From IMG/VR virus record IMGVR_UViG_3300010210_000006, positions 1 through 39,765 of that record: a stretch of 39,765 bases of DNA. One strand, 5' to 3'. The notes below the pieces were generated by a model. That model saw nothing but the letters and a program-made list of their open reading frames with translations, was not told where the DNA came from and ran no database searches. Of this stretch, positions 7,190-38,940 are shown one piece after another. A program made the position numbers and the translations under genes. The stretch is from a virus. Each line of letters starts with the position of its first letter. Positions within the stretch are counted from its first letter, which is position 1.

Positions 7190-7198
7190 GTAAATATT

Positions 7199-8084: not shown

Positions 8085-8094
8085 AAAGTGATTT

Positions 8095-9081: not shown

Positions 9082-10382
9082 TCTGTAAGTGTTTTTTGTG
9101 TACCGGTAGGATTACTATCGAGAGTTGTAAGTACGGTGTCCTTAAAACCAAACTCCATTTCACGAGGCCACTCGTTAAATTTTCTTAGGAAATAAAGCCA
9201 ATCAAGGAATTTCCTGCGCTGTAAACCAAGGTTGCTGATAAATATTTCTTTGGCTTCGCGCTTGTCAGATCCTGAACCTGCACTTTGTTTATTGTTTGGA
9301 AGTCCGGCACCTTTTAAGGTAGGATCCAGGTTAAGTGCAAAAAGTATCATGGCGTTTGCTTCTGCCTGATCTATGGTTAGCGTTCCATCAGGAATTGAAT
9401 TATCAATTTTTATAATATCCCATCCCGGAACTTCTTTTCCTGCACGGTCAACAGCATAATGCGAAAAAAATGTTTTCATAACATTATCTTTCCCGGTAAG
9501 GAAATCGTTCATTTTGTGCATTTCTTCCTGGCGTAATTCCTTCTGATCATCTGCAGTAAGTTTATCCCAGTTTTTATATTTATCCTTCCAGAAACTCTTT
9601 GGAATACGGATATGATATTTAATGCTCATGGCATTTTTAAGAAGGCTTTGTTTTACTCCCGGAATATTATTTGATATCTCTATCCATCCGCTATCGATAA
9701 TCGAATGCCAGGCACGTTTTGGATAATACAATCTACCCTGACCAACATATCCTGCACGGTGAACAAACTTTCTGTTTTTATATGGATTTGTATAATCAAA
9801 TACCGGCGACCAGTCAATTTCATGAGGCTTTGCATCAGGAAACTGAGCCGAGTAAAATAGTTTATCAATTTTACGCCTGCCTGGTTGCATTTTTCCCCAT
9901 CTGCTGAAACTTGCATCGAGGGCATTTACCTTGAGTATTTTTTTAGCGTATTTTCCTTTTCCCAAATAAAACTCCGGAACTTTAAAACCGAAAAACATTG
10001 CATCGGTAATAAGTTGCTCCAGTACTTCATCAAAGAAGTTTTCCTCACGAAAGTCTTCGAACTCTTGGAAGTTTTCACGGTATAGAGTTTCTTTGCCGTC
10101 AACAATTTCTTTTTTGTAGGTGACCAGTCCGCCGCCATAAAAAGCGTTTATCAGCCACTCAAGGCCACTTGAGGCCACTACATTTTTATCGACAGCCTCA
10201 ATTATATCCTGAGGACGTGAATCGTTTGGTCCCCAAAATGCCCAGTCTTTCTGTGTATTTTCAGGTTCCCAATAAAACTGACTTTCCTTTGCACCAATTT
10301 CGGGCAAAGTAATTATTGCCTGCGCACCGCCTAAATAAGCAGTTGAGCCATCATCTGATATGTGAACTTTTGGGCTAATCAT
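9078..10382 (-). CDS. Portal protein (434 aa)
   Basis: Recognised by its overall pattern: N-terminal FWGPNDSRPQDI and an acidic EDFREENFFDEVLEQLITDAMFFGF helix-rich region, then a wing/stem region with DPTLKGAGLP, and a C-terminal helix run (ISNLGLQRRKFLDWLYFLRKF) characteristic of phage portals; length is normal. It forms the dodecameric DNA channel at the head vertex. Unusually it lies about 10 kb downstream of terminase and capsid genes, after the tape measure and tail fibre. It overlaps the preceding gene by eight bases and is expressed from the late promoter at 10694-10728. Confidence 0.75.
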   Translation of the reverse strand: MISPKVHISDDGSTAYLGGAQAIITLPEIGAKESQFYWEPENTQKDWAFWGPNDSRPQDIIEAVDKNVVASSGLEWLINAFYGGGLVTYKKEIVDGKETLYRENFQEFEDFREENFFDEVLEQLITDAMFFGFKVPEFYLGKGKYAKKILKVNALDASFSRWGKMQPGRRKIDKLFYSAQFPDAKPHEIDWSPVFDYTNPYKNRKFVHRAGYVGQGRLYYPKRAWHSIIDSGWIEISNNIPGVKQSLLKNAMSIKYHIRIPKSFWKDKYKNWDKLTADDQKELRQEEMHKMNDFLTGKDNVMKTFFSHYAVDRAGKEVPGWDIIKIDNSIPDGTLTIDQAEANAMILFALNLDPTLKGAGLPNNKQSAGSGSDKREAKEIFISNLGLQRRKFLDWLYFLRKFNEWPREMEFGFKDTVLTTLDSNPTGTQKTLTE

Positions 10383-10689
10383 AAACTGTCATTCCGTTAA
10401 ATTTTTCAATTAGTCGCACATGGATAGTGCGAATTTCTTTAGATGGTAACAGCAACAAATTAATAGTGCCATTTTCCTCGTGATTGGGCATTTTTGTTTT
10501 ATCGCTTAGCCTGGGTTTGGCCACATGCTTTTGTTTGTAGATGATAGCCTTTTTTACATGCAAGCGGCCACCACCTTCGTTAGTGAAAAAATTAAGTTTA
10601 CAAACATCAACACTAAAAGGAATAAATTTCCCCCTGGTGTCACGCTTACGCATTTGCTGAAGTGCCTTTTTACGAGAGATTAATTTCAT
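10375..10689 (-). CDS. Hypothetical basic protein upstream of portal (104 aa)
   Basis: Unrecognised. Highly basic N-terminus (MKLISRKKALQQMRKRD), then beta-strand-like segments; no membrane segment. The start at 10689 is chosen because a late promoter -7 box (10694-10701) ends exactly four bases before this ATG, as in three other late genes; the longer frame from 10710 would begin inside the promoter spacer. It is the first gene of the unit that continues into portal, adaptor, lysis and baseplate genes, so a role in head or connector assembly is plausible but unproven. Confidence 0.55.
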   Translation of the reverse strand: MKLISRKKALQQMRKRDTRGKFIPFSVDVCKLNFFTNEGGGRLHVKKAIIYKQKHVAKPRLSDKTKMPNHEENGTINLLLLPSKEIRTIHVRLIEKFNGMTVYD

Positions 10690-10693
10690 GATG

Positions 10694-10728
10694 CTAACAT
10701 AATGTTGCATCAGTTTTTTTTAAAGGAC
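10694..10728 (-). promoter_or_regulatory. Late promoter Pa (portal-lysis-baseplate unit)
   Basis: GTCCTTT (10722-10728), exactly 20 bases, then TATGTTAG (10694-10701, one mismatch to TAnnTTTG), then four bases and the ATG at 10689. CTCCCTGTCCTTT, 13 bases, is shared with the site at 29324-29358. Transcription would start at or beside the start codon. Confidence 0.7.
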
Positions 10729-10734
10729 AGGGAG

Positions 10735-11181
10735 TTAATCTATATTTTTCAAAAACTTCTCCTTAATAAGTTGCATAAGCGACTTACCCAAAAACCAAGC
10801 CCCCACAGCAGGCCACCAGGTAATTGAAATTGCTGCTTCAATACAACGGTTTTTTAGAAATTGGAAATAGTGTTCGCCATCAGTAAATGGAACTAATATG
10901 GTTGAAGAAAATGGGAATGCTTCTTCATATTTTGGTGCAATTCCAAAATGATACCATTTCTTTTTATAGGGTAATAGGTTGCCATTTTTGTCTTGTTTCC
11001 ACTTATTTCGTGATGCCAGGTTATTATTGAGGAATTTAAGATCTAGTTTTTTGAAAACCCAGATAGGCTTTTTCCAATGGCTACGTACACTTTCATCTTC
11101 AAACTCGACAAACATTAAATATAGCAATCCAAGAACAAAGTTTGCTGCTAAAATGTAGTATATGGAGATTAGGCCTATCAT
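10735..11181 (-). CDS. Hypothetical membrane protein (148 aa)
   Basis: An N-terminal transmembrane helix (about residues 3-24, IYYILAANFVLGLLYLMF) and a second hydrophobic segment near the C-terminus (about 115-133, AAISITWWPAVGAWFLG) enclose an aromatic, basic middle part. No family recognised. It is the last gene before the late promoter at 10694 and follows two tail-fibre-related genes; its ATG overlaps the previous stop by one base. It might be an envelope-acting accessory protein such as a superinfection-exclusion factor, but nothing in the sequence proves this. Confidence 0.55.
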   Translation of the reverse strand: MIGLISIYYILAANFVLGLLYLMFVEFEDESVRSHWKKPIWVFKKLDLKFLNNNLASRNKWKQDKNGNLLPYKKKWYHFGIAPKYEEAFPFSSTILVPFTDGEHYFQFLKNRCIEAAISITWWPAVGAWFLGKSLMQLIKEKFLKNID

Positions 11182-19880: not shown

Positions 19881-20309
19881 GGTTAAAGAATGCCTGGCTT
19901 TACACAGATAAGAGGAAACTAGTGTCAAGTGCGGAATATCCTTAAGGAGTCCGCTTTGTATACACTTTACATTGTTGAGTCGTTCTGTAATTTTGCATTG
20001 CTTCTAAACTGTGAGTAACAGTTATGCGTTGGTTTTCTTTTTGCTACTTTTTCTTTTGTTCCTTCATGAAAAGAAAAAGTAGCGCCCAAGTCTCATAAAT
20101 AAATACTTAAAATTCAATCTATTAATGTTTTAGCATTGGGGAAATGCTAAAAATTAATAGTTGAATCAACACTACCCACGCCAACCCCTATTTGAAAAAC
20201 GCAATTGCTTTTTGCATTTGAAGGGTGGATATATGAAAATGGGGGTAGGGCTGCGCCCTTAGTGCACATTGCAATTGAATTTTTGCAATTGCATCATTGC
20301 ACTTAGTAA
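19881..20309. other. Non-coding stretch with inverted repeats after terL
   Basis: No credible gene. A 15-bp perfect inverted repeat GCTACTTTTTCTTTT/AAAAGAAAAAGTAGC (20043-20057 and 20069-20083) and a second one (20121-20137 with 20143-20158, core TTTTAGCATT/AATGCTAAAA) can act as terminators in both directions for terL on the right. GCAATTGC palindromes stand at 20201, 20271 (partial) and 20285. A TTGACA at 19923-19928 belongs to a possible but badly spaced promoter for 19813. Confidence 0.6.
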
Positions 20310-21938
20310 TTAGATCATCTCTGTATCATCGAAGGAGGCTGCGCTATCGTTCCATTGGTCAGCGTACTTGCCATAGAACCATGTAGACCATGCCTCCTGT
20401 GCATGGGTAGCATGCTCGGGTAGTATGTTGGCATCCTTCTCACTACGTTTGTCAATTTCAAATCCGGATGGACCTTGACGTGTCATAGTGTTCTCCATGG
20501 ATGTGAGCAGGGACTCACAGTTATGGTGATTGAACTTAGGCATAGGTAACTCAGGACACCCACGTAAGGCATTGTTAAACATCTCATATCGTGATTCATA
20601 AGAGGGTGCCTGGCCTATGTAGAACTCATTCACATCCCAGTCATTCTCCCGGAGGATATCTATTACCTGGTCAGCGAATGTATAATCACCTAGTATTGCA
20701 TTGCGGCCAATGGCTGTATGGTCGAAGTAGTAATTAACTTCTTTGGTTGAGTGGTCTTGATAGTATTTGCAAAACTTCTTGACTACATCTTTAAGCATTA
20801 GTGGGGACTTAACAAAGAGGAAGTTAATAGTCTTCGCTCCTTGTGATACCACCAGGCTATTGATAACAGCGTTATAGTCAAGTGAGATGTCGAGTGCATC
20901 TTCCGGATCCACATCCCCATCCTGATGGTAATCGTGCTTCTTGAGTTTGGTGAAGTCAAATCCAATTTTATCAATCTTTTGATAATTGAATTTTGTATAA
21001 TAATGCATGTCTTCATCCAGCATTGGATAAAACATTCCTTCTTCCTTTTTAACTCTTTCGTTAAGGATTGAAGCCCTGTATTTTAGTGACGGTAGATTCC
21101 TTTTTTGTTCACTAATAAATGACGGACCTAAAACACGTAGATTCTCCAAAGTTGAGAATTCTGAAAAGTAAACCAGGCTTTCTTCTTTATCACCACCTTT
21201 GCGGATATATTCCAAAAAATTCTCCAACTTAGATATTTTATTTTTAGTTGATTTACTTAAGTTATCTGAAGAATTTTGTAGTTTAATTATTTTCTTAATT
21301 AAGGCTTTCATTAGTAAAATGTCCTCTTCATCCATTTCATCTTCATACTTCATTATCCACTGCTGTTTTGGCGATGTGGGCATATCAGTACAAAATAATA
21401 ATGAATGATGACAAGATTCTTTTTGAAAATATTGGCGATTGCCTCTATTAGTCTGAAATGTCTCCTGAAGTTTGTCAAAATTTAAGTGTTTAGCTTCATC
21501 ACCTACAATATAATCAACAGATGGACCTGCAGAGTTACTTACTCGATCTTGACTTACCAACACCTGGCATGATCCATTAAACCAAAATATTGCATGTTTT
21601 GGGGATAAAGGAGAGTTATAAGGTTCTGGCCACAACCAAGATTTTGGAGGTTTCTTTCCTATAAAATAATCTACATCTCTATGATACCCCATTCTTTTCC
21701 ACATTTCAATAACAGGTGGTAAAGTATTTACTAGCAAGTGCTGAAATGTTGGACCTACAATAATACCTTTGGAACGAGGCATTCGAAAAAGTTTATCTAC
21801 TACTAGAACAGCAATTACACCCTCACTTTTTCCAGTTCCACGACCCCAAACACAAATTGTAACCGGAGCGTTTATTAGGTAAACTAATTGCTGTGGATCA
21901 TTCAGATAAAGTTCTTTTTCAATTGCTTCATTTGTCAT
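20310..21938 (-). CDS. terL: Terminase large subunit (542 aa)
   Basis: The packaging motor: ATPase plus nuclease. Walker A is GRGTGKS (about residues 32-38 from the ATG at 21938), Walker B is VDYIVGDEAKHL, and the nuclease aspartates sit in DISLDYNAVI (about 348) and YYFDHTAIG (about 405); the end is typical (HATHAQEAWSTWFYGKYADQW). An ATG three codons earlier (21947) is possible; the gene overlaps the small subunit gene either way. The right part (ATPase) is very AT-rich while the left part (nuclease, 20310 to about 20940) is near 50% GC, with a sharp border. The gene is intact, so this looks like domain exchange by recombination. Confidence 0.9.
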   Translation of the reverse strand: MTNEAIEKELYLNDPQQLVYLINAPVTICVWGRGTGKSEGVIAVLVVDKLFRMPRSKGIIVGPTFQHLLVNTLPPVIEMWKRMGYHRDVDYFIGKKPPKSWLWPEPYNSPLSPKHAIFWFNGSCQVLVSQDRVSNSAGPSVDYIVGDEAKHLNFDKLQETFQTNRGNRQYFQKESCHHSLLFCTDMPTSPKQQWIMKYEDEMDEEDILLMKALIKKIIKLQNSSDNLSKSTKNKISKLENFLEYIRKGGDKEESLVYFSEFSTLENLRVLGPSFISEQKRNLPSLKYRASILNERVKKEEGMFYPMLDEDMHYYTKFNYQKIDKIGFDFTKLKKHDYHQDGDVDPEDALDISLDYNAVINSLVVSQGAKTINFLFVKSPLMLKDVVKKFCKYYQDHSTKEVNYYFDHTAIGRNAILGDYTFADQVIDILRENDWDVNEFYIGQAPSYESRYEMFNNALRGCPELPMPKFNHHNCESLLTSMENTMTRQGPSGFEIDKRSEKDANILPEHATHAQEAWSTWFYGKYADQWNDSAASFDDTEMI

Positions 21939-22542
21939 CTTCACCAACTATTTCAGCATTTTCAAAATCAACCTTTTTTTTAGATTTCTTTTTAAATTTC
22001 TTAATTAAAGAATCTATTTCTTTATCTGAGTAATCAGGGATATCTCCTAGGGCTTTAGGATTAGAAGTAATAACCAAAATATTTTGCTGAAGCATATCCG
22101 GAGTAATTCGGTTATCATCCCCTCGAGGATGGCCCAGAACCATAGCAAGGTTTCTTTCAGCCGCTGCTTTGGCTCGCATATCACCTTTAGTTTTCGACAT
22201 ACGAATAGTTTCGATTATCGAATCTATGAGAAACTGATCATAGTAATTGTTATCGATGGAAACTGTAGAGCCAATTACATATTGCATGTGATGGATATCT
22301 CGATAAGCCTGTGCCCTGCTAATGCCATATTTTGTTTTGAGTTTTCTGGCCACTTCATGACGGCTACGTTTTTGAGACAGCAGATCATGACAAAAGAAAT
22401 ACCTGTCCATCCTGGCTTTTTCTGAAGTAGTAAGTTTTACAGAATCTTCACCATTATTAATATACTCGATAATCTTTTCGTTTTCATCGAGTTCCTTTGT
22501 CAGGTAGGTTGTTTTGATATTTTTTGTCAGTTGTTTTCTCAT
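21928..22542 (-). CDS. Probable terminase small subunit (204 aa)
   Basis: A helix-turn-helix is visible at about residues 58-90 (SRHEVARKLKTKYGISRAQAYRDIHHM), followed by a helical middle part and a Lys-rich C-terminus (KKFKKKSKKK). Small terminases recognise the packaging site with such an HTH. It overlaps terL by some 11-20 bases and is preceded by another HTH-like gene overlapping by four bases. With two candidate small-subunit genes in a row, which of them binds the pac/cos site is unclear; this one is nearest terL and is the better size. Confidence 0.65.
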   Translation of the reverse strand: MRKQLTKNIKTTYLTKELDENEKIIEYINNGEDSVKLTTSEKARMDRYFFCHDLLSQKRSRHEVARKLKTKYGISRAQAYRDIHHMQYVIGSTVSIDNNYYDQFLIDSIIETIRMSKTKGDMRAKAAAERNLAMVLGHPRGDDNRITPDMLQQNILVITSNPKALGDIPDYSDKEIDSLIKKFKKKSKKKVDFENAEIVGEDDK

Positions 22543-24915: not shown

Positions 24916-24950
24916 CAAAGTTGCAATTGCGCAATTGCAAATAAAAGGAC
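24916..24950 (-). promoter_or_regulatory. Late promoter Pd (packaging unit)
   Basis: GTCCTTT (24944-24950), 20 bases, CAACTTTG (24916-24923), four bases, then the ATG at 24911. The spacer and -7 region contain the perfect 20-bp palindrome TTGCAATTGCGCAATTGCAA (24921-24940), a likely regulator site. The terminator of the capsid unit ends immediately upstream. Confidence 0.7.
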
Positions 24951-29358: not shown

Positions 29359-29489
29359 AGGGAGGCAATTAGGCTAAACAATTGCTTGCAATTGCAAAAA
29401 AGGACACATCTATCAATACTTAGGCTTAAATGGTTGTAACTCAATGTTGTAATGTTTAAACTTTTTCGGACAATAATATCAAACATTTA

Positions 29490-30378: not shown

Positions 30379-30407
30379 TATTAGTACAGCCTTGTGCTGT
30401 ACTAATA
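30379..30407. repeat. Perfect 12-bp hairpin
   Basis: TATTAGTACAGC (30379-30390) and GCTGTACTAATA (30396-30407) are perfect inverted copies around a five-base loop. No T-tract follows, so it is more likely a protein-binding or replication structure than a terminator. Confidence 0.6.
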
Positions 30408-30448: not shown

Positions 30449-30555
30449 TGCAATCAGAGTGTTTGGGGATCCTCCGGGATATCATGTTCCGGAAATGGTA
30501 AAATGATTGCAGAAAGTTTCCTGGGAAGATCTTGGCCAATTAAAAAGTGATTGCA
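30449..30555 (+). repeat. 107-bp element, copy 1 (E1)
   Basis: Boxes TGCAATCA (30449), TGATTGCA (30504) and TGATTGCA (30548), with GGATCC (30467) and TTCCGGAA (30487) between the first two and GGCC before the third. Copy 2 at 37415-37521 has the same boxes with identical 55- and 44-base spacing in the opposite orientation. Confidence 0.7.
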
Positions 30556-30639
30556 AAAAGAAACCCGCCAAGTGCGGGCGCAGTATGGTGGGTTTCCATG
30601 TGCTACTTGCGCCATAACCCTTAAAAACTCAAGTAGCAC
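30556..30639 (-). terminator. Two-hairpin structured terminator region
   Basis: Leftward: GTGCTACTTG/CAAGTAGCAC (30630-30639 with 30600-30609, perfect 10 bp), then GAAACCC/GGGTTTC (30590-30596 with 30560-30566) followed by UUUUU. An inner CCCGC/GCGGG can compete with the second stem. A short open frame across it (30454-30639) is not credible. Confidence 0.6.
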
Positions 30640-30726
30640 TCCAAAATTAATAATTTATGTTCATATACGCAAAGTATTCTTAGCAATAGGTTAATTAGGT
30701 TTTAAATACGCAATTCTCTGGAGGAT

Positions 30727-30751
30727 AAAACCGCCCATTTAAAAACGGCGG
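30727..30751 (-). terminator. Terminator after 30762-30986
   Basis: CCGCC/GGCGG (30731-30735 with 30747-30751) followed leftward by UUUUAUCC. It closes the early operon that begins far to the right. Confidence 0.7.
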
Positions 30752-30761
30752 ATAACTATTT

Positions 30762-30986
30762 TTAACGGCAAGCAATATGTGGGTTATACATATTTTGAAA
30801 ACTTTGCCATAACATTCTTTTATCTAATTCTTTAGCAACCTGTGGGCTTACGTTCTTATGTGTTTCTTCTTCTGTGGCTGCCAATGCAAGCACTTGTTCA
30901 TTTGTAATAATGCCAGCCGTTAACAATGCGTATAAATCATTGCTATTGGCTATTTCATTTACACTTTTTTCATAAATCTTTAACAT
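30762..30986 (-). CDS. Small hypothetical early protein (74 aa)
   Basis: Helical, acidic and Asn/Ala-rich (LLTAGIITNEQVLALAATEEE); two helices likely. No family recognised. Its start overlaps the end of 30970-31317 by 17 bases, so it belongs to the early operon as its last gene, before a terminator and the non-coding control region. Confidence 0.5.
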   Translation of the reverse strand: MLKIYEKSVNEIANSNDLYALLTAGIITNEQVLALAATEEETHKNVSPQVAKELDKRMLWQSFQNMYNPHIACR

Positions 30987-31317
30987 GATATTTCAATTTT
31001 AAGTTATTTGAAATTATTTTATTCCATTCTCTTTTCGTAAATATTATTTCAAAAAATACATCCTCCGCATCCCATTCACAACTACAATCAACCGACAAAA
31101 ATCCATTTTCGCAAATACATTTTGCTTCAGATAAAATAATATTTAGGATAAACCTATTAGGTCTATATGAATAAATACCTGAATAATTCTTAGTGTCAAA
31201 AGATCCTCCTGCATATAATTCGTATTTATCATTAGGAGGGTCATTTCTTTTGAAATAATCTATAATTTCATCAAGATCTATTAACTCTAAGTATGTTTCA
31301 TCAGGAAAATATTTCAT
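30970..31317 (-). CDS. Hypothetical early protein (115 aa)
   Basis: Acidic N-terminal helix (ELIDLDEIIDYFKRNDPPND), strands in the middle and a Cys-containing segment C-x(n)-CENGFLSVDCSCEWD near residues 75-90 that might hold a metal, though the spacing fits no finger I know. Unrecognised. Five bases separate it from the next gene upstream (31323). Confidence 0.5.
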   Translation of the reverse strand: MKYFPDETYLELIDLDEIIDYFKRNDPPNDKYELYAGGSFDTKNYSGIYSYRPNRFILNIILSEAKCICENGFLSVDCSCEWDAEDVFFEIIFTKREWNKIISNNLKLKYHVKDL

Positions 31318-31322
31318 GATTA

Positions 31323-31595
31323 TTAATCAATCAAATCCGTATCATTACTATAAACTAAACCAGGTTCATTATCAATAAGTTCTCTTATTGAAACTTTATA
31401 GGGTTTTCCTTCTGTACGATCGTTATCTTCCCACATTTGAATAAACCTTTCATCCCATTCACTTTCGGGGATTTCTTCAACTGAGTCGATTGAGATTTCT
31501 CCTACCTGTTCAATTAAAGTGGCTTTTGCTTCTTCTTCTGTGTTACCTGAAAATGCATATATGTATTGGCAGGATTTGAATTTGAATACTTTCAT
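31323..31595 (-). CDS. Hypothetical acidic early protein (90 aa)
   Basis: Begins MKVFKFKSCQYIYAFSGNTEEEA, a compact alpha/beta pattern common in small phage proteins, with strongly acidic remainder (IPESEWDERFIQMWEDND). Unrecognised; acidic small early phage proteins are often DNA mimics or inhibitors, but that is only an analogy. Two bases from the membrane-protein gene upstream. Confidence 0.5.
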   Translation of the reverse strand: MKVFKFKSCQYIYAFSGNTEEEAKATLIEQVGEISIDSVEEIPESEWDERFIQMWEDNDRTEGKPYKVSIRELIDNEPGLVYSNDTDLID

Positions 31596-31597
31596 AG

Positions 31598-31819
31598 TTA
31601 TAAGTTTTTTAATTTATTCTTTAATTTTTTAAGTTTTATTTTTTTATAGTCAATAAAAGCAGATAAAATGAAGATTACACCAGTAAGTCTTAATACAATT
31701 GTAGAAATTGTGTCTGGAACCAACAGTAGATTAAGCCCGATTATAAGATTTCCTATGACAACCATAATTTTAAATGATGTTCTAGTTAAAAGTGGTTTTT
31801 TCAATTCTTCTTTTGTCAT
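31598..31819 (-). CDS. Small membrane protein (73 aa)
   Basis: Two transmembrane helices (about residues 16-34, FKIMVVIGNLIIGLNLLLV, and 38-55, STIVLRLTGVIFILSAF) and a Lys-rich cytoplasmic tail (KKIKLKKLKNKLKNL). Unrecognised. Its ATG follows the zinc-ribbon gene's TAA by one base. A phage superinfection or cell-takeover role is possible. Confidence 0.55.
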   Translation of the reverse strand: MTKEELKKPLLTRTSFKIMVVIGNLIIGLNLLLVPDTISTIVLRLTGVIFILSAFIDYKKIKLKKLKNKLKNL

Positions 31820-31820
31820 A

Positions 31821-31976
31821 TTAAACTCCTTTCATTGTTTCTTCAAAAAACTTTTGTTCTTCTATACAATAAATGCAACGACCATCATCAATTAGAATGT
31901 CGTCTGATATTTCGCCACAACTTGAACATTCTCCATGTTCTAAATCAAATGGTGTATAAATTGTTTCAGTAAACAT
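31821..31976 (-). CDS. Small zinc-ribbon protein (51 aa)
   Basis: Found by translating the gap between 31598 and 32001: ATG at 31976, stop TAA at 31821-31823, one base before the next ATG. The sequence has four cysteines arranged CSSC (residues 17-20) and CIYC (34-37), a zinc ribbon, in an acidic context (DDILIDDGR). Such short zinc proteins are frequent in phage early regions and may contact nucleic acid or RNA polymerase. The cysteine pairs and tight packing make it a real gene. Confidence 0.65.
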   Translation of the reverse strand: MFTETIYTPFDLEHGECSSCGEISDDILIDDGRCIYCIEEQKFFEETMKGV

Positions 31977-32000
31977 AATTTTAAATTTATTTTGTTAATA

Positions 32001-32294
32001 CTAAATGTCTAATACATATATTCTTTCCCTCCTAAGGAATATCCAAAAATCATTTCTTTCAGTAAAACCCAGTCTGGTCCTAAGTGCATAATATCTGTTT
32101 GGATGTACTTCACTGTGGATCAGGTATGGTTTTTTATAAATGTACTCCTGTTCCTTATCTGACCAGAAATCTTGCAGAGTAGCAACTCTGAAAGAAGGAG
32201 GAATTTCTTCGTAATACGGAATTTGATATTTGTCGTATTTTAGTTCAGGTTGTGCTTTGGCCTTAGCAGGCTTTTTTAATTTAATAGTTCCCAT
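32001..32294 (-). CDS. Hypothetical early protein (97 aa)
   Basis: Lys/Ala-rich N-terminus (KLKKPAKAKAQ), then an aromatic-rich alpha/beta part (YQIPYYEEIPPSF; FWIFLRRERIYVLDI). No family recognised. It follows the primase-helicase gene by four bases, so it is likely co-regulated with replication. Confidence 0.5.
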   Translation of the reverse strand: MGTIKLKKPAKAKAQPELKYDKYQIPYYEEIPPSFRVATLQDFWSDKEQEYIYKKPYLIHSEVHPNRYYALRTRLGFTERNDFWIFLRRERIYVLDI

Positions 32295-32298
32295 AACA

Positions 32299-35200
32299 TT
32301 ATATTGTTAGTTCATCTGTTCCTATAGTAAAATACTCAACCGATGATGATTTATCTTCCATGCCAATGAAAGTTTTACCACCATTGTTAAGAAAATCGAT
32401 TATGTTTATTCCATCTTTATTAGGTTTGTGAGGATTGAAATGCAAGCCTTTATATTCGCAGTAATAACGAACACATTTACCAAAACGAGTGGCTGAATAG
32501 AAATCTGATTCGCGACGTTTTAAACTGCTGTCAAAATCGTTATACATATCTTTCCTGGGAATTTTTGTATCGAGGTTGGATTTTCCAAATTCACCGGCTT
32601 CTACACCTGTTTCGCGTTTAGGTGCAAAATATTCCTCTGCCCAGGTTAAGAATGATTCTCCCATCATTTGGCGGAGTTTACGCAAACGTACATCACGTTG
32701 TGGAGCGATTACCAAACCGTATTTAAAATACAACTGAAGCGATAAGGCTACCAGGTTGTAATAGTAATTATATTGCTCCTCTGGCCATTCTTTAAAAAAC
32801 AACATGCCAAAATCATCGAGGGGTTTATGGTATTCGTTGTAAAAATCGGAGAATACAATATTATGTTGCCTGTCTTCATAACTGGAGCCCTCACCGTTGA
32901 AAGAGTGGTTAGTAGCAAAATATATTTTTGGGGAAAATTCAGGATCCATAGTCCAACCCTGTTGACCTTTTACATTAATTTTCCAGGTACCGGTAATGTT
33001 TGGGAAAAAGAACTCAAAATCCATACCTACTCTAACATCGTCGAAAAATACGTTTTCAGTCTTTTCAGTTATTTCTCCAAACAAAAAATTATCATCGGTA
33101 AGTTTTTTGCTTTTACCAGGTATTTTAACCTGAGGGATAATTTCTCCTATGGCTTCGCCAAAAAGTGATTTTCCTGAGCGTCCGTTGCTGGCTCCAACTT
33201 CACTAAGTTTTCCATCCATGCCAATTATGGCTTTGGTAATTGCAGGATTATAATATCTGTGGCATAAGTAACCCATTGCGGTTAGTTTGCTTAGCAGATG
33301 CATTGACAAATCAATGTACTGATCAGGTTTTAATTCAGCTACATTCTTGCTTTCGCGCCAATGGAAATTACTTGTGTTTATAAGGAACTGAAGGAAGTGA
33401 GATTTTTGACCGGTATCAGTCAAAATCATTGCATAAGGTAATGCTGTTTGTTCGTTATAATATTTTTTTATGTCCGGATCTTCAATCGCATCAATAGTGT
33501 CCTGGTCAACCTGTTCAAACGATATCATCTTTTCCTTAAGAAATTTGATATCGAAATCAATTATTTTATCTTCCCAAATGGTTTGTGATTTTTCGTTTAA
33601 TTGATGCTCGCTAACTTTGTCTGAAGAAATTCTAAGAAACTTGTTTCTGAAGTGCATGTTTTGAGAATCTTTTTTTGATTTCTCAAAATTGATATCAAAA
33701 AATTTCATGTTCTCGAGGGAGTGATCTCCAAGGTAAAAATGTCCGCCTGAAAACAATAAATTCTGCACATCTTCACTTGCAATTTCTTCAGTAATTGTAG
33801 TAACAAAAAATTTAATTTCCTCGCGTTTAACTGTTTTTACAACATGGTTTTTAAAATGCACATATTTCCAGTCGCCAGCCATACGAACACGTCCATAGCC
33901 ACGATTACGAAGGAATGTATATGCACGTTTATAATTGAAGTTAGGCTTACCTTTACTGTCGATCATCCAGTATTTTTCTTCCGGAAGTACTGGCTCAGCA
34001 AGTTCAAAATCTTCATTTTCGTTAAACCTGTATTTATTACGATTTATAGTAAACTCAGGTACGTTAATTAGTATATCCTTATGATGCTCAGCAAACTCCT
34101 GTGCGCTATTGAGTTTCCAAAAATCTTTTATCTGATAATCAGTTAATGCTGTTATTTTATGCAATTCACAAAATGAACCCTGGCCACTTTTAAGGCTCAT
34201 CGTTTCTTTAAGGTCCTGCAAAAAATCAGATTCCTTATTTTTTAAAGATCCTGCAAGCAGATCGTCAATACCCTTTTCATCCTTTTCGTTTTTCTTAATT
34301 GCACCAAAATAAACCTCCAGGTTGATTCCCATATTTCTGAAGGAAAGCATATACTCCTTATAGTTTTTAATGGCATAGTAAAAATTAAGAGGTCTTTGCT
34401 GTGGATTTCCCCCGTTTTTTATGTCAGATGAAATATTTTGCCAATCGCTATCGAGCATAAAAACTACCTTCTTTACATTACATTTCTGTATTAGTAATTG
34501 AAGGTCCTTAGGCATTGTATTGTGGCTTCCGATATTTTGTATACCCATTACACCAACACTCAAAATATCGTGCTTACATGCCTTCTCAGCCTTTTTTTCA
34601 CCCTCTTGTATGTATAGGGTTTCAATTTGCCGGCCAATTTGATAAATACGCCTTATTTTTTGAGGGATATACAATTGAGTCCCGGAGCCGGCGGGTGAAT
34701 AATATTTTATTGGTTTGCCAAATCTGTCTTTATGCTCTTCAGGATTTTGGAAACGAACACGGAAAAATTCTTCGTAAGTTTTGCGCTTTTCACGCTTGAA
34801 CATTATAGCCTTTCCCTCGAGGTCGTAATACCAAATTACCATATCATTCCCATAACCTGGCATTAATTGATAATAATCATTTAATGAACCTACGGTGAAA
34901 GGAGTAATTTCATGAGTTTTATCAGTATCATTATCCTTAAAAACAGTGGCCATTACATCTTTAGCGGTAAGCCCTGAATCACTCAGTTGAATATCGGTAA
35001 ATGTCTTCTTTCCTTTGCCAATTTTGCGCTGTGCTTTCTGGCTTTCTTTCATTTTTTTATTGAAATCAGAATTAATTTCAATATGATATTTATCGGCCAG
35101 AAATTCTAAAGCATCTGTAAAGGTCATTTTTTGGATCTCCATCAAAAATTTAATGGAACCATGACCGCTTTTGTCGCATGAAAAGCACTTAAACACCTGT

Positions 35201-35364
35201 TTTTTTTCTGAGAAAGTCATCCCCTTGCCTTTACCTGACTTACCACAAACAGGGCATTTTGCATATAATGTAGATCCTGCTTTTTCAATCTTCATAAAAC
35301 CGGATGCAACTTCCTCCAGTTTTGCAATGCTTTTTATTTCTTCTATGGTTTGTTTTGGGATCAT
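32299..35364 (-). CDS. Primase-helicase (1021 aa)
   Basis: A single large replication protein. The DnaG-type zinc finger has C37, C40, C60 and C63 (CPVC...CFSC). A Toprim domain lies at about 250-310 with EGEKKAEKA and FMLDSDW. The C-terminal part holds a superfamily-3-like ATPase: Walker A GASNGRSGKS at about 726-735, a Walker-B-like NVFFDDV about 35 residues on, and the later IYFATNHSF sensor. Such multi-domain proteins prime and unwind phage DNA. It is the only replication enzyme seen, so the host must supply the polymerase. It overlaps 35361-35561 by four bases. Confidence 0.9.
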   Translation of the reverse strand: MIPKQTIEEIKSIAKLEEVASGFMKIEKAGSTLYAKCPVCGKSGKGKGMTFSEKKQVFKCFSCDKSGHGSIKFLMEIQKMTFTDALEFLADKYHIEINSDFNKKMKESQKAQRKIGKGKKTFTDIQLSDSGLTAKDVMATVFKDNDTDKTHEITPFTVGSLNDYYQLMPGYGNDMVIWYYDLEGKAIMFKREKRKTYEEFFRVRFQNPEEHKDRFGKPIKYYSPAGSGTQLYIPQKIRRIYQIGRQIETLYIQEGEKKAEKACKHDILSVGVMGIQNIGSHNTMPKDLQLLIQKCNVKKVVFMLDSDWQNISSDIKNGGNPQQRPLNFYYAIKNYKEYMLSFRNMGINLEVYFGAIKKNEKDEKGIDDLLAGSLKNKESDFLQDLKETMSLKSGQGSFCELHKITALTDYQIKDFWKLNSAQEFAEHHKDILINVPEFTINRNKYRFNENEDFELAEPVLPEEKYWMIDSKGKPNFNYKRAYTFLRNRGYGRVRMAGDWKYVHFKNHVVKTVKREEIKFFVTTITEEIASEDVQNLLFSGGHFYLGDHSLENMKFFDINFEKSKKDSQNMHFRNKFLRISSDKVSEHQLNEKSQTIWEDKIIDFDIKFLKEKMISFEQVDQDTIDAIEDPDIKKYYNEQTALPYAMILTDTGQKSHFLQFLINTSNFHWRESKNVAELKPDQYIDLSMHLLSKLTAMGYLCHRYYNPAITKAIIGMDGKLSEVGASNGRSGKSLFGEAIGEIIPQVKIPGKSKKLTDDNFLFGEITEKTENVFFDDVRVGMDFEFFFPNITGTWKINVKGQQGWTMDPEFSPKIYFATNHSFNGEGSSYEDRQHNIVFSDFYNEYHKPLDDFGMLFFKEWPEEQYNYYYNLVALSLQLYFKYGLVIAPQRDVRLRKLRQMMGESFLTWAEEYFAPKRETGVEAGEFGKSNLDTKIPRKDMYNDFDSSLKRRESDFYSATRFGKCVRYYCEYKGLHFNPHKPNKDGINIIDFLNNGGKTFIGMEDKSSSVEYFTIGTDELTI

Positions 35365-35561
35365 ATATCTAATTGTAATTGGCGGTTTTCTATTATTTCG
35401 TAATCATGCTCTCTTACAAGCACAATTATATTAGGGTTATCGATAAGTGATTTTACCTGTCTGAAGTACACAGAAATTTCACCTCGTTTTGTATCGATTA
35501 CAAAACCCTTTTTACGGAGTTTGTAGGTTGAATTGTATCGGCGTTTGGTTGCAGGATCCAT
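35361..35561 (-). CDS. Hypothetical small protein upstream of primase (66 aa)
   Basis: Basic N-terminus (MDPATKRRYNSTYKLRKKG) and a short beta-like remainder (FVIDTKRGEISVYF). The pattern resembles a small winged or DNA-contact module, but I do not recognise a family. Start overlaps 35561-35830 by one base and stop overlaps the primase start by four; translationally coupled. Confidence 0.55.
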   Translation of the reverse strand: MDPATKRRYNSTYKLRKKGFVIDTKRGEISVYFRQVKSLIDNPNIIVLVREHDYEIIENRQLQLDI

Positions 35562-35830
35562 TATTTTAATTGTTTATGGTTATTCACCTTAATATTTTCC
35601 GGGATTTCCGAAAGTTCCATTCTTCCTGAAGCAACCAGTTGTGCTGCTTGTAAATGTATTTTTGCATTATTAACTATTACCGCTCCAACCTTAGCCATTG
35701 CTGTTGCTCGTTTAATGGTTTTTTCCATGTCTTCAACCGGTTCACCTTTGTCGTTCGTCTCCGGGTTCGTGAGATCCTCAAGAGCATTAAATAAATGATC
35801 ATTAAGGTCTGATAGTTTATTCCTTGCCAT
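35561..35830 (-). CDS. Conserved phage protein, helical (89 aa)
   Basis: Pattern LSDLNDHLFNALEDL followed by IKRATAMAKVGAVIVNNAKIHLQAAQL is one I associate with a small family widespread in Bacteroidetes and Proteobacteria phages, encoded among early genes; function is not established. Two helices dominate. It overlaps the HNH gene by 14 bases. Confidence 0.6.
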   Translation of the reverse strand: MARNKLSDLNDHLFNALEDLTNPETNDKGEPVEDMEKTIKRATAMAKVGAVIVNNAKIHLQAAQLVASGRMELSEIPENIKVNNHKQLK

Positions 35831-36563
35831 CTTTACTAATTTTAGTTATTGTTCTTTTCAATTTTCCTAACAACCTCATTGCTTTGCGAGCATCAGGAGG
35901 GTAATTGTGAATAGTATTTAGGGCCATGTTTTTAGCCATGTCGATAGGTTCCCAATTGTCAGGATCACAATTCAATTGATTTCCATCTTTACACCTTAAA
36001 AAGGTAGTCGTAGGGATATCACCATATTTCTTTTTGTAATTTACACGGTGAAGTAAATCCCATTTGCCTTCAGCAATTCTTATATATTTATATACTATAC
36101 CGGTGCGTTTGTCTTTTCTGGTAGTTACTGCACCATCATAGAGAGTATTAACTGGTTTATGACCTTTTTGAAAAAATGTATGAGCAACTTTTTTCTTAAT
36201 TTCAGGATTCATTTTTTTACCTTTATTAGCAGGTGTATGACCTTTTTGAAAACATCCTGAATTAGTTTTTTTACCTAAACCAAGTTTACTGGCTCTGTTC
36301 TTTATGTTTGTATATGAAATATTAAGAATCGCTCCAATTTCTTTTGATGTGTGAGTTTCATAAAGTTCCTTTAGTTTTTCATCCATTTGAATTGTCCACT
36401 GATTGCCAGTATACAATGGCTCCTTTTTTATTTTAAGTTTTTTTGCTTTTGAGTGAATGGATGCTACAGGTCTTCCTATTAATTTAGATAATTGTTTTGT
36501 TGGGGTAACCGGGTACAGTTCCCTCAACCTTTCAATTTCGTTATTTGTCCAAATATTTCTCAT
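35817..36563 (-). CDS. HNH endonuclease with two Myb/SANT-like repeats (248 aa)
   Basis: The N-terminus has two similar helix-turn-helix units (residues 1-48, WTNNEIERLRELY, and about 53-98, WTIQMDEKLKELYETHTSKEIGAIL). The HNH part is visible at about 170-205: LLHRVNYKKKYGDIP (H), then CKDGNQLNCDPDNWE (N). Free-standing HNH genes of this type are mobile homing endonucleases common in Bacteroidetes phages. A strong terminator-like hairpin sits immediately before its ATG, which supports later insertion into the early operon. Confidence 0.75.
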   Translation of the reverse strand: MRNIWTNNEIERLRELYPVTPTKQLSKLIGRPVASIHSKAKKLKIKKEPLYTGNQWTIQMDEKLKELYETHTSKEIGAILNISYTNIKNRASKLGLGKKTNSGCFQKGHTPANKGKKMNPEIKKKVAHTFFQKGHKPVNTLYDGAVTTRKDKRTGIVYKYIRIAEGKWDLLHRVNYKKKYGDIPTTTFLRCKDGNQLNCDPDNWEPIDMAKNMALNTIHNYPPDARKAMRLLGKLKRTITKISKDGKE

Positions 36564-36566
36564 AGC

Positions 36567-36615
36567 TAAAAAAAGAAAGCCGACAAAGTCGGTGCAAAAC
36601 GGTAGCCGGCTTTCT
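36567..36615 (-). terminator. Terminator just before the HNH gene
   Basis: AGAAAGCCG/CGGCTTTCT (36607-36615 with 36574-36582), followed leftward by seven U; an inner CCGAC/GTCGG can compete. The loop holds GGCTACCGTTTTGC, also present at 29981-29994 on the other strand. The HNH start codon comes within ten bases. Confidence 0.75.
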
Positions 36616-36622
36616 GGTTGAT

Positions 36623-36769
36623 TTATTTTAATTTTTCTCTTAAATACTTACTTAAATAGGTTACAATAAGGAAGTAGGGAATATCAAGCGCTTCAGCAAT
36701 TTCCACATAAGTAAATTCGCCTAACTCAAAATACTCTCTCACTTCTAAATATTGTTCCTGGTTAAACAT
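36623..36769 (-). CDS. Small helix-turn-helix protein (48 aa)
   Basis: Found in the gap between 36563 and 36769. Starts at the ATG of 36767-36769, overlapping the TAA of the upstream gene (TAATG); stop TAA at 36623-36625. Sequence reads as one HTH (EFTYVEIAEALDIPYFLIV) plus a basic tail (KYLREKLK). It is a complete short DNA-binding unit, in operon with neighbours and followed by a terminator. A real gene from packing and HTH pattern; target unknown. Confidence 0.6.
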   Translation of the reverse strand: MFNQEQYLEVREYFELGEFTYVEIAEALDIPYFLIVTYLSKYLREKLK

Positions 36770-37080
36770 TAGCCTAGTGTATTGCAGTTATTCATTAGTT
36801 CAGAAATTTCTTCAGAAACAGTTTCAGTTATCCATGCCTCAAGGGGAATAAGCATTTGAGGTGAATTATATGTATCTCTTACACCGTTGTATAGGCTCTC
36901 ATCGCCTTCCTGAATATGTAGGAGTTTTATATCCGGATGTTGTTTTTTCATTTCAGGAATAATATTTCTGGCAAACTCCTGACTTATAACAGCATTGTAT
37001 AATTCCAACCTTTCAGCATCGTTTAGCGAATCGATGAAGGTTCTTATTTTATCGTTGGCCGAAATGAGAATATTATTCAT
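36769..37080 (-). CDS. Hypothetical early protein (103 aa)
   Basis: Helical, acidic and soluble (FIDSLNDAERLELYNAVISQE; SEEISELMNNC). No family recognised. The stop codon overlaps the ATG of the small HTH gene, and the start overlaps the stop of 37077-37412 by four bases (ATGA). Confidence 0.5.
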   Translation of the reverse strand: MNNILISANDKIRTFIDSLNDAERLELYNAVISQEFARNIIPEMKKQHPDIKLLHIQEGDESLYNGVRDTYNSPQMLIPLEAWITETVSEEISELMNNCNTLG

Positions 37081-37412
37081 GATACACGGTTTTTTAAATA
37101 GTTTTCTTTTGCTTTAATTGGGTCCTGGTTAGCATCGATGAATATTATTGTTTTCCTGTCGATAACAACCGCTTTTTTACGTTTTAGGTTGGGGCTGGCA
37201 GCAATAGCCTGTTTTCTGGTTTTAATTCTTTTTTCCTCTTTTCCATCGATAATAGCAGCCCTACTAATCGATTTACTTTTACCAAAGTTTCTATCCATTT
37301 TCTTGGGGGTTTTATTAATATTCTCACGTCTCTGGAGAAGTATCTCGAGTAATTTTTCAACTCGAGGACCATTCCTAAACATTGTTTTTTTAATTTTTAC
37401 TCTAGTTGTCAT
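37077..37412 (-). CDS. Hypothetical basic early protein (111 aa)
   Basis: Very basic protein, rich in Lys and Arg (IKKTMFRNGPRVEKLLEILLQ; KKRIKTRKQAIAASPNLKRKK-like stretches), probably nucleic-acid binding. No family recognised. Its ATG directly follows element E2 (37415-37521): the third TGATTGCA box ends three bases before it, so E2 may be its promoter or operator. Confidence 0.5.
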   Translation of the reverse strand: MTTRVKIKKTMFRNGPRVEKLLEILLQRRENINKTPKKMDRNFGKSKSISRAAIIDGKEEKRIKTRKQAIAASPNLKRKKAVVIDRKTIIFIDANQDPIKAKENYLKNRVS

Positions 37413-37414
37413 TT

Positions 37415-37521
37415 TGCAATCATTTTTAAATTTTTTACCTGGTGGCCGGCTTTATTTATGCAATCATTATTCTCTTCCGGAAGATCCTGCAGCGATGGAT
37501 CCGGGATGCTATGTGATTGCA
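37415..37521 (-). repeat. 107-bp element, copy 2 (E2)
   Basis: Inverted relative to copy 1: TGCAATCA, TGATTGCA and TGATTGCA boxes (as + strand 37514-37521, 37459-37466, 37415-37422), spaced 55 and 44 bases, with GGATCC at 37497 and TTCCGGAA at 37475. It fills the only gap between 37412 and 37509 and overlaps the last codons of 37509-37763. Confidence 0.7.
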
Positions 37522-37763
37522 GTTAATTCTTCAAAAGCATTTTTGAACACACTAATTTTTGACTTAAGTTTGAAATTATCAGCATGCAAACCCTCATTTT
37601 GATGATCGCATTCAATTAGTTGTTCTTTTAGAATTGGAACCTCTTTAACAACAATATCAGCGGCTTTTAAAAGTGCTTTCGATGCAGATGTTTCATTGAG
37701 TTGTTCTTTTAATTGCTCAACTAATTTTTCCTGATCAGGTGTAAGTCTTATAGTAAGTGCCAT
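37509..37763 (-). CDS. Ribbon-helix-helix-like protein with coiled coil (84 aa)
   Basis: N-terminal LTIRLTPDQEKLVEQLKEQLN and SASKALLKAADIVV form a pattern like a CopG/Arc ribbon-helix-helix domain; residues 45-84 form a coiled-coil-like helix. A small dimeric DNA-binding protein is likely, possibly a regulator that binds the E elements next to its own end. That link is only suggested by position. Confidence 0.55.
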   Translation of the reverse strand: MALTIRLTPDQEKLVEQLKEQLNETSASKALLKAADIVVKEVPILKEQLIECDHQNEGLHADNFKLKSKISVFKNAFEELTAIT

Positions 37764-38397: not shown

Positions 38398-38940
38398 TTA
38401 TACAATTCGTTTTTCTACAGCAAAGCGGCAAATTCCGACCTTGCTTGATGCTCCAATTTTCTTTTGAATATTAACACGATGCTGGTTAGCAGTGTTAACT
38501 GATATATTTAGTTTATCGGCTATTTGTTTGTCAGCCAGATCTGATGCAATGAGTTTAATAACATCAATTTCACGAGGCGTTAAATAACCATTTTCGGCTT
38601 CAACGTGACGACAGAGTTTTCCTTCAACAGGGCACTTGCCTCTTTGGCCGCAGTCATAATATTCGTGATTTTCAGAATCCTTAGTAACGTCTGCTTTATC
38701 ATCAAAACCACCAAACCTGCACAGCGTAAATTTCTTAAGGCGTTCCTTTTCCCCTACTATATTTAATTGATCAAGGCTTACCTGGGCAATTGTATCATCA
38801 TCTAATTGCGATTGAAGCGAGTATAATGTTTTGGCCTCGAATTCATTAAAATGGATTAATTCAACCTTTACTCGATATAATTCACCATCAATACCAATGA
38901 ATTCTCGATTTATATTATTTAAGTGCTCAGGAAGTTTCAT
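38398..38940 (-). CDS. LuxR-type regulator with cysteine cluster (180 aa)
   Basis: Residues 119-180 are a LuxR-type helix-turn-helix (LTPREIDVIKLIASDLADKQIADKLNISVNTANQHRVNIQKKIGA), a known transcription-activator domain. Upstream lie four cysteines, C74, C97, C103 and C110 (CGQRGKCPVEGKLC), probably a zinc or Fe-S site; the N-terminus (1-60) resembles a ligand or dimer domain. It overlaps the Cro-like gene by four bases and is the second gene of the leftward early operon. It is a candidate activator of the GTCCTTT late promoters, but another factor could do this. Confidence 0.75.
   Translation of the reverse strand: MKLPEHLNNINREFIGIDGELYRVKVELIHFNEFEAKTLYSLQSQLDDDTIAQVSLDQLNIVGEKERLKKFTLCRFGGFDDKADVTKDSENHEYYDCGQRGKCPVEGKLCRHVEAENGYLTPREIDVIKLIASDLADKQIADKLNISVNTANQHRVNIQKKIGASSKVGICRFAVEKRIV

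Follow-up and report, generated by a model that had tools for sequence, protein, structure and literature searches.

The window analysed here, that is, the whole stretch of 39,765 nucleotides of the IMG/VR virus record IMGVR_UViG_3300010210_000006, contains two 107-bp elements, E1 and E2 (Table 1), facing each other in inverted orientation across an early/replication block, and the question they raise is which protein might read them and what they might control. We suggest, with a probability of roughly 0.8, that they are operator arrays of an autoregulator encoded by the phage itself, the 84-aa ribbon-helix-helix (RHH)-like protein. E1 lies past the final gene of the block, while E2 sits between the gene of the 84-aa protein, whose final bases it overlaps, and the next gene downstream, which is presumably under its control and whose start codon is two bases away from E2, and not three as reported in a preliminary description of this sequence.

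Table 1. Coordinates of the elements, boxes, palindromes and genes discussed in the text.
Feature	Position	Strand	Remarks
E1	30449-30555	+	three TGATTGCA boxes, steps 55 and 44 bp
E1 boxes	30449-30456; 30504-30511; 30548-30555	-; +; +	TGATTGCA
GGATCC of E1	30467-30472		centre 17 bp from centre of box 30449-30456
TTCCGGAA of E1	30487-30494		centre 17 bp from centre of box 30504-30511
Final gene of early/replication block	30762-30986
Primase-type replication protein	32299-35364	-	CHC2 zinc finger; lies between E1 and E2
48-aa HTH protein	36623-36769
First gene downstream of E2	37077-37412	-	ATG 2 bases beyond E2; homologues in G002 and G003
E2	37415-37521	-	three boxes, steps 44 and 55 bp
E2 boxes	37415-37422; 37459-37466; 37514-37521	-; -; +	TGATTGCA
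TTCCGGAA of E2	37475-37482		centre 16 bp from centre of box 37459-37466
GGATCC of E2	37497-37502		centre 18 bp from centre of box 37514-37521
84-aa RHH-like protein	37509-37763	-	MALTIR N-terminus; proposed binder of the boxes
LuxR/GerE-type regulator	38398-38940

The three 8-base boxes previously noticed in both copies were found again at the same positions and with the same steps. Their number by itself is unremarkable, since the window holds six copies of TGCAATCA/TGATTGCA against a shuffled expectation of 2.71 and at least six also occurred in 7 of 100 shuffles; the striking feature is their location, all six falling within E1 or E2, with steps of 55 and 44 bp in both. Indeed, when the window was searched for any 8-mer arranged as w...rc(w)...rc(w) at these two distances, E1 and E2 were the sole matches. 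The ungapped comparison of the two elements revealed 55 identical positions out of 107, 24 of which belong to the boxes and 31 to the 83 positions of the filler, in agreement with the strong divergence of the latter noted before. GGATCC and TTCCGGAA follow each other in the same order, 20 bp apart in both copies, even though their register against the boxes differs by one base.

We examined 27 regions in which relatives of the 84-aa protein are encoded, including the window and the related phage IMGVR_UViG_3300005145_000094 (hereafter G001). The boxes follow each other at multiples of 11 bp (33, 44, 55): the pair distances comprise 36 at 44 bp, 20 at 88, 4 at 55 and 3 at 33, and 45 TGATNGCA pairs at 33, 43, 44 or 55 bp were counted against a shuffled mean of 0.02. 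Defining an array as at least three boxes at such steps, both E1 and E2 are arrays. GC palindromes numbered 156, compared with 24 in shuffled fillers, and the GGATCC and TTCCGGAA palindromes of the window are part of this lattice. The idea that conserved boxes embedded in diverged filler point to protein binding is in agreement with these data, which place the boxes on one helical lattice; the filler itself, on the other hand, turned out to be constrained, as it carries phased GC palindromes.

The absence of the boxes from homologous phages had been indicated as an observation that would refute the earlier interpretation. The outcome was divided: they are present, at matching places, in G001, and arrays are absent from MT835542.1 and from G002 and G003, two nearer kin of G001. 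G001 harbors four elements with the same 107-bp geometry, in the order +, -, -, +, and all of its 12 TGATTGCA copies lie inside them; the element 8482-8588 corresponds in place to E1, with the same orientation relative to transcription, and the element 3716-3822 corresponds to E2. The primase (44% identity between the window and G001) is likewise bracketed by elements in G001. The bracketing of the replication block is confined to these two phages; G001 has two further elements located elsewhere, and the arrays of inoviruses and plasmids mostly lie ahead of the gene for the protein itself. Among these phages the presence or absence of arrays goes in step with that of the 84-aa gene, a homologue of which exists in G001 and was not found in G002, G003 or MT835542.1. 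Searches of viral contigs with the primase or the prohead-protease-like protein gave no relatives.

The same association was observed starting from the DNA. When IMG/VR viral contigs were scanned, without reference to any protein, for three TGATWGCA boxes in the same orientation at 43/44-bp steps, 17 contigs belonging to seven sequence groups were matched, and all of the contigs (17/17) encode a relative of the 84-aa protein; its gene falls within the stretch around the array in 14 contigs and elsewhere on the contig in the other three, and in 12 of the 14 the array ends 12-254 bp ahead of its start codon. Arrays of mixed orientation were matched in one contig, already among the 17. A relaxed triple scan returned seven contigs, among them the inovirus-like G007, G008 and G011, whose arrays adjoin an MA[LF]TIR gene, and L031, which was set aside for its different, GC-rich palindrome; in two more, G006 (21,966 bp) and G010 (12,022 bp), the array is identical and no relative of the protein was found. 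These two contigs, to which IMG/VR gives no completeness value, may be fragments. A protein of about 80 aa starting like MA[LFI]T[IVL]R shares its replicon with an array in the window and in all 17 contigs, but not in G006 and G010.

Arrays were also retrieved when replicons were chosen by protein similarity, in eight of ten plasmid/phage records (weakly in L052 and L042), with a total of 12 arrays in the ten records against 0.05 per shuffle. The analysis of 394 order-level genomes gave 24 matches, from which seven partial coiled-coil ones (L069-L075) were removed together with four tandem copies (L076, L078, L079, L080), leaving 13 full-length loci in 12 genomes; arrays occur at ten of them. 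Of the 13 loci, L057 is nearly identical to a row of the alignment. No array was visible for the relatives L055, L056, L061, L066 and L077, and the profile used for detecting relatives found none in 10 array-less records or stretches. The carriers of both protein and array also include Vibrio inoviruses and enterobacterial plasmids, where arrays of three to five boxes, uniform or mixed in orientation, mostly lie a short distance ahead of the gene encoding the protein; in G007, G011, MT188662.1 and L060 the array closes with a box, TGATGGCA, that shares bases with the start codon ATGGCA. Unlike most carriers, the window and G001 have their nearest array at the 3' end of the 84-aa-type gene. In further searches, 12 of 369 class-level genomes matched at E ≤ 0.01, all weakly besides G012; one of 399 matched, partially, in the order of G772; and none of 395 matched the window/G001 two-row profile in the phylum of G771, a search run without a positive control. 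With tblastn in a phage collection, the window protein had one weak match and the G001 and G011 proteins had none, and, of six matches in genome contigs, five were set aside as chance, lying within coding sequence.

Concerning the protein, the AlphaFold monomer model (mean pLDDT 89.4) shows coil at residues 1-8 and helices at 9-21 and 27-83; in RHH proteins the beta strand forms only in the dimer. The Foldseek matches of this model, all weak (E 0.14 or worse), included MazE, plant TCP domains, ParD, NikR, CopG and CdbA, which we take to be RHH or RHH-like proteins. No curated RHH family was matched in Pfam at E ≤ 0.1, where TSC22 alone appeared, below its own cut-off, or in NCBIfam at E ≤ 1, and the sequence matches among solved structures included no recognised RHH protein, the best (E 0.016) being a designed coiled coil. 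Since none of these searches gave a firm RHH match, the predicted fold rests on the monomer model and on the appearance of the N-terminus, whose residues T4 and R6 are invariant across the 11-row alignment. The protein matches phrog_15613, whose function is listed as unknown in PHROGs, over nearly its full length (residues 1-82 on profile positions 1-78 of 81, E 3.1e-9); the MT188662.1 protein matches it at E 1.3e-46. Among the three DNA-binding proteins proposed previously, it is the best candidate binder, in that the presence of its gene tracks the boxes.

The other two candidates do not behave in this way. The 48-aa HTH protein was set aside because it is present in the box-less G002 and G003. 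The LuxR/GerE-type regulator, encoded near E2 and carrying a GerE domain (E 1.4e-14), was our initial candidate on conservation: no other protein is as well conserved between the window and G001 (74% identity, compared with 44% for the primase). However, it also occurs in G002 (83%) and G003 (77%), and its helix stretch NTANQHRVNIQKK does not differ between the window and the box-less G002 but is changed in the box-bearing G001; the boxes do not follow the recognition helix across kin, and, since relatives with the same helix lack them, we rejected this protein and regard the boxes as very improbable operators of it.

A different possibility is that the arrays are chiefly architectural or segregational, the RHH protein wrapping or bridging DNA in a centromere- or nucleoid-like manner and gene control being secondary. 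The multiple dispersed arrays in G001 and in some plasmids, the phasing of boxes and GC palindromes, and the precedent of type Ib centromere proteins, which have the RHH fold and act on arrays of boxes, fit this idea, which we nonetheless consider unlikely: the array is just ahead of the gene for the protein itself in 12 of 14 contigs, partition would not obviously be needed by inovirus prophages or by an integrase-bearing phage, and no ParA/ParM partner was found among the scanned subset of window proteins. Some plasmids carry ParA-type genes, which do not adjoin the RHH gene. Nothing specific was found in support of the origin or partition role put forward in the preliminary description. Two further explanations deserve hardly any credit. 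The stretch 30449-37521 starts with TGCAATCA and ends with TGATTGCA, with three boxes per end, as if a mobile or invertible segment with inverted 5'-TG...CA-3' ends carried the replication block; yet no target-site duplication was seen by eye at the outer flanks, no transposase was found among the scanned proteins inside, which comprise all but a few small ones, G001 has four copies in its +, -, -, + order, and the three to five boxes of plasmid and inovirus arrays do not form paired ends. Similarly, boxes 2 and 3 are both reverse-complementary to box 1 and both elements lie between codirectional genes, so that the transcripts might form alternative hairpins acting as a terminator or switch, but E1 and E2 are opposite in orientation relative to transcription, the steps are exact in spite of filler divergence, and single-orientation arrays cannot pair in this way.

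Returning to the autoregulator, we infer that one RHH dimer would bind each TGATTGCA box and that, the boxes being spaced by whole multiples of 11 bp (44 and 55 here), the dimers would hold a fixed relation to one helix face, with the GC-rich palindromes, placed some one and a half helical turns away from the box centres, possibly aiding the bending or wrapping of the DNA between them. As the 84-aa gene directly precedes E2 within the early operon, the accumulating protein would fill E2, stopping or slowing transcription into the replication genes; it would also occupy E1, at the far end of the block, and the two complexes might pair, looping the 7-kb block. It is conceivable, though we would sooner bet against it, that the RHH protein, the TGATWGCA boxes on the 11-bp grid and the phased GC palindromes constitute a single control system common to filamentous and tailed phages and to conjugative plasmids, which may wrap array DNA at about 11 bp per turn, instead of 10.5, into a compact transcription-blocking particle exchanged as a cassette.

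Partial parallels exist. The Omega repressor and the ParR/ParG-type centromere-binding proteins are RHH dimers acting on arrays of short boxes; these boxes are contiguous or nearly so, without a 44/55-bp lattice, and the partner ATPases belong to partition systems. Lambda OL/OR and the L5 stoperators offer more than one repressor site in an operator, or copies at scattered places, with a possible long-range loop, but differ in repressor fold, spacing and sequence. Reg(p576) of the pLS20-family clade II conjugative plasmids is similarly a small, predicted RHH repressor of its own and several other promoters that reads repeated short motifs, its operators being heptamers, TTATCCCnnTTATCCC, that occur in pairs next to the -35 box with two bp between them (PMC8708921); in the arrays described here, instead, 8-bp boxes lie 25-47 bp apart, with steps in multiples of 11 and with in-phase GC palindromes, and the carriers include phages. 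The ArdK/KorA family (R388, pKM101) also comprises plasmid-encoded regulators reading direct and inverted repeats, but with a helix-turn-helix fold, only a few bp between the repeat arms, and another sequence (PMC9723621). These boxes were not found described together with an RHH protein in a search of mainly open-access literature, which may have missed a mention among the papers holding TGATAGCA; the protein and its sites suggest a widespread control switch that is apparently undescribed.

In the RHH operators known to us otherwise the boxes are contiguous or nearly contiguous; a grid of exactly 11 bp into which GC palindromes are built is unusual for an operator. For the unannotated family of phrog_15613 and its relatives, carried here by filamentous and tailed phages as well as by enterobacterial plasmids including pKPC_UVA01, the data suggest a probable function and provide a binding site that can be put to the test. 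Repression of early or leading-region genes by the protein, if it occurs, would mean that a single small family connects the control of phage replication with the establishment of plasmids.

The analysis of the window confirmed the three boxes spaced 55 and 44 bases that the preliminary description had assigned to two inverted elements, E1 and E2. Each contains three TGATTGCA, with the order of the steps mirrored, and together they account for all six copies of this 8-mer; a search of the window for any 8-mer arranged in this way revealed these two elements only. Compared without gaps, E1 and E2 share 55 of their 107 positions. The gene coding for an 84-aa protein ends inside E2, and the ATG of the following gene lies two bases beyond this element, not three as previously stated. 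The 84-aa reading frame runs past its TAG into E2 and there resembles the C-terminal tail of the homologue in the related phage contig G001 (IMGVR_UViG_3300005145_000094), so that part of that tail is encoded by the element itself. The record (a virus of 39,765 bases) has a 20-base direct repeat at its ends, and encodes a prohead-protease-like protein and a tape-measure protein, both on the minus strand. In the window, G001, L025 and L001 alike, intergenic GTAC-containing sequences stand ahead of the following block of genes, and possibly represent a packaging-start site or another operator.

Coordinates of the features discussed, in the window and in other records
Record	Positions	Strand	Feature
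Window	139-1338		integrase gene
Window	20201-20292, 24923-24938, 29379-29395		clusters of GCAATTGC-like palindromes (letters related to the boxes, spacing different)
Window	20310-21947	minus	terminase match
Window	30381-30405		GTAC-containing inverted and repeated sequences
Window	30449-30555	plus	E1
Window	32299-35364	minus	primase
Window	36623-36769		48-aa HTH protein
Window	37077-37412		gene with its ATG beyond E2
Window	37415-37521	minus	E2
Window	37473-37511		84-aa frame past TAG
Window	37509-37763	minus	84-aa protein
Window	38398-38940		LuxR/GerE-type protein
G001	~9956-10500		GTAC-containing inverted and repeated sequences
L025	17500-17750		GTAC-containing inverted and repeated sequences
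L001	29080-29200		GTAC-containing inverted and repeated sequences
L031	4768-4905 and elsewhere		repeated palindromes TTTGATTGCACGGTGCAATCAAA
G141 C1	~2217311-2232996		three RHH genes
G359 C1	~2141184-2154774		three RHH genes
L094 (G245)	6000-11000		relative with five boxes

The check for boxes in related phages, proposed in the same description, gave a divided answer. The scan of viral contigs with exact spacing retrieved one contig, G001, with four elements embedding all 12 of its TGATTGCA; the same pattern had no match in genome contigs. Two of the four correspond in place to E2 and E1, the former overlapping the gene of the 84-aa homologue at its 3' end and the latter coming after replication genes; the remaining two are located further down the contig, adjoining other genes. 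No box element was found in G002, G003 or MT835542.1, even though G002 and G003 are nearer to G001 (primase 66-67%) than the window is (primase 44%, LuxR-type protein 74%, 84-aa protein 52% over 52 residues). With 74-83% identity, the LuxR/GerE-type protein is much better conserved in G001, G002 (83%) and G003 (77%) than the primase (43-44%).

This distribution bears on which protein might read the boxes. The LuxR-type protein was rejected because its recognition-helix stretch is identical in the window and in G002, which lacks boxes, and different in G001, which has them, that is, the opposite of the box distribution; the 48-aa HTH protein is also encoded by the box-less G002 and G003. The 84-aa protein is present in the window and G001, and neither tblastn nor a profile found it in G002, G003 or MT835542.1. 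Its first six residues, MALTIR, are the same in both phages, the whole-protein identity being 39%. The structural model (mean pLDDT 89.4) comprises a short N-terminal segment, a helix at 9-21 and a long helix at 27-83, as expected for a ribbon-helix-helix (RHH) monomer that ends in a coiled coil. The Foldseek matches, weak throughout (best E 0.14), have MazE and plant TCP domains at the top and ParD, NikR, CopG and CdbA further down; these are RHH or RHH-like proteins. No RHH model was matched in Pfam and NCBIfam scans, and no RHH protein was recognised among the sequences of solved structures; judging from the monomer model and the N-terminus, an RHH fold is likely.

Allowing the steps to vary, the scan of viral contigs added six candidates. 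The arrays of G006 and G010 are identical (steps 44, 55), and no relative of the 84-aa protein was found in these two contigs; the inovirus-like G007, G008 and G011 (steps 44, 43) encode beside the array a protein starting MA[LF]TIR. The sixth, the GC-rich viral contig L031, was discarded as a carrier, since its palindrome is a different one, with the same 8-mer in different use; a relative was sought there and not found. Among genome contigs, five of six matches fell inside coding sequence and were rejected; the other is an array (44, 44) on a Huaxiibacter chinensis contig, in a region also occurring on plasmids. This contig encodes MALTIRT..., with five boxes upstream at exact 44-bp steps, one of them mismatched. 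Similarly, pKPC2_CF65, pKPC_UVA01, one Pantoea and one Proteus plasmid carry five such boxes, which precede the homologue or extend across its start. Both pKPC2_CF65 and the Pantoea plasmid have a second array beside a tyrosine recombinase gene and ahead of the next gene (annotated as antirestriction in pKPC2_CF65), unlike pKPC_UVA01, whose second array is located elsewhere. From these records the box was generalised to TGATNGCA, mostly TGATWGCA. Those inovirus and plasmid carriers that are named belong to the Gammaproteobacteria; the distant matches of the window proteins include Polaribacter and Bacteroides phages (primase) and Microcystis, Flavobacterium, Bacteroides and Vibrio phages (LuxR-type protein). 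In G141 and G359 the RHH gene occurs three times, at steps of 7,726 and 6,710 bases, and these copies look like tandem filamentous prophages. The relative in L094, whose boxes stand at 44-bp steps, lies near endolysin-like and virion-structural-like proteins and may belong to a non-filamentous prophage.

The association between protein and array was examined in both directions. Among ten records chosen by protein similarity (L041, L042, L049-L056), eight contain at least one array of at least three boxes with at most one mismatch per box, for a total of 12 arrays versus 0.05 per shuffle; the L052 arrays carry two mismatches each, the L042 array is downstream of the gene, and none was found by this rule in L055 and L056. 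An 11-row alignment matched 19 of 394 order-level genomes (E <= 0.01), from which 13 full-length loci were retained, leaving out partial coiled-coil matches (L069-L075) and tandem copies (L076, L078, L079, L080). Arrays occur at ten of them (L057, L058, L059, L060, L062, L063, L064, L065, L067 and L068, the last with 33-bp steps) and were looked for without result at L061, L066 and L077. Conversely, scanning DNA alone for TGATWGCA boxes, three in the same orientation with steps of 43/44 bp, yielded 18 stretches on 17 contigs, all encoding a relative (14 within the fetched stretch, three elsewhere on the contig); at 50% ungapped identity over 60 residues these relatives fall into seven groups, one of which comprises seven contigs. 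Applied to ten array-less records or stretches, several of them partial (MT835542.1, G002, G003, L019, L021, L031, L035, L036, L037, L040), the same profile gave no relative. In 12 of the 14 contigs, 12-254 bp separate the end of the array from the start codon of the relative downstream, the exceptions being L103 (array 1.4 kb upstream) and L101 (array downstream, about 3.8 kb from the start).

The 27 regions around relatives, among which the window, G001, G007, G011 and pKPC2_CF65 entered on account of their boxes, contain 97 TGATNGCA boxes versus 14 in shuffles. Of the box pairs within 140 bp, 88 of 91 deviate from a multiple of 11 by no more than one base (36 at 44, 20 at 88, six at 132, four at 55, three at 33), pairs inside one array and related loci being non-independent. 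The 70 intervals hold 156 GC palindromes versus 24 in shuffled fillers, clustering about 15-18 bp from box centres, with 65 versus 3.2 in windows near 16.5 and 27.5 bp; the list (CCGG, CCWGG, GGCC, CTGCAG and others) was picked after viewing the fillers, and these figures overstate significance because the shuffle loses their GC-rich middle and some arrays are near copies. By eye, 33-bp intervals have one such palindrome, 44-bp intervals typically two and 55-bp intervals up to three, and the filler adjoining boxes is AT-rich; GGATCC and TTCCGGAA of E1 and E2 belong to this class.

The simplest reading, we infer, is that each box takes a single RHH dimer and that the boxes follow a grid of about 11 bp per turn; together with GC bend points in the intervals, this would give a wrapped or compact complex. 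An array just ahead of the protein's own gene likely serves negative feedback; in G007, G011, MT188662.1 and L060 the start codon is overlapped by a last box, which has G as its variable base. In the window the 84-aa gene comes before E2 and the replication genes after it, so that the accumulating protein would close E2; E1 is at the opposite end of the replication block, which E1-E2 pairing could draw into a loop. Binding, repression, wrapping and looping are all putative activities of the RHH protein.

Of the described systems found, the nearest is that of Reg(p576), predicted to be an RHH repressor, which likewise has multiple operators, at several plasmid promoters; these differ from phased arrays, being heptamer pairs two bases apart (PMC8708921). 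ArdK/KorA differ in being HTH regulators (PMC9723621). Among the matches listed from the open-access literature, these boxes were not described with an RHH protein. On this reading the system is probably RHH autoregulation with an unusual phased operator, common to very different mobile elements.
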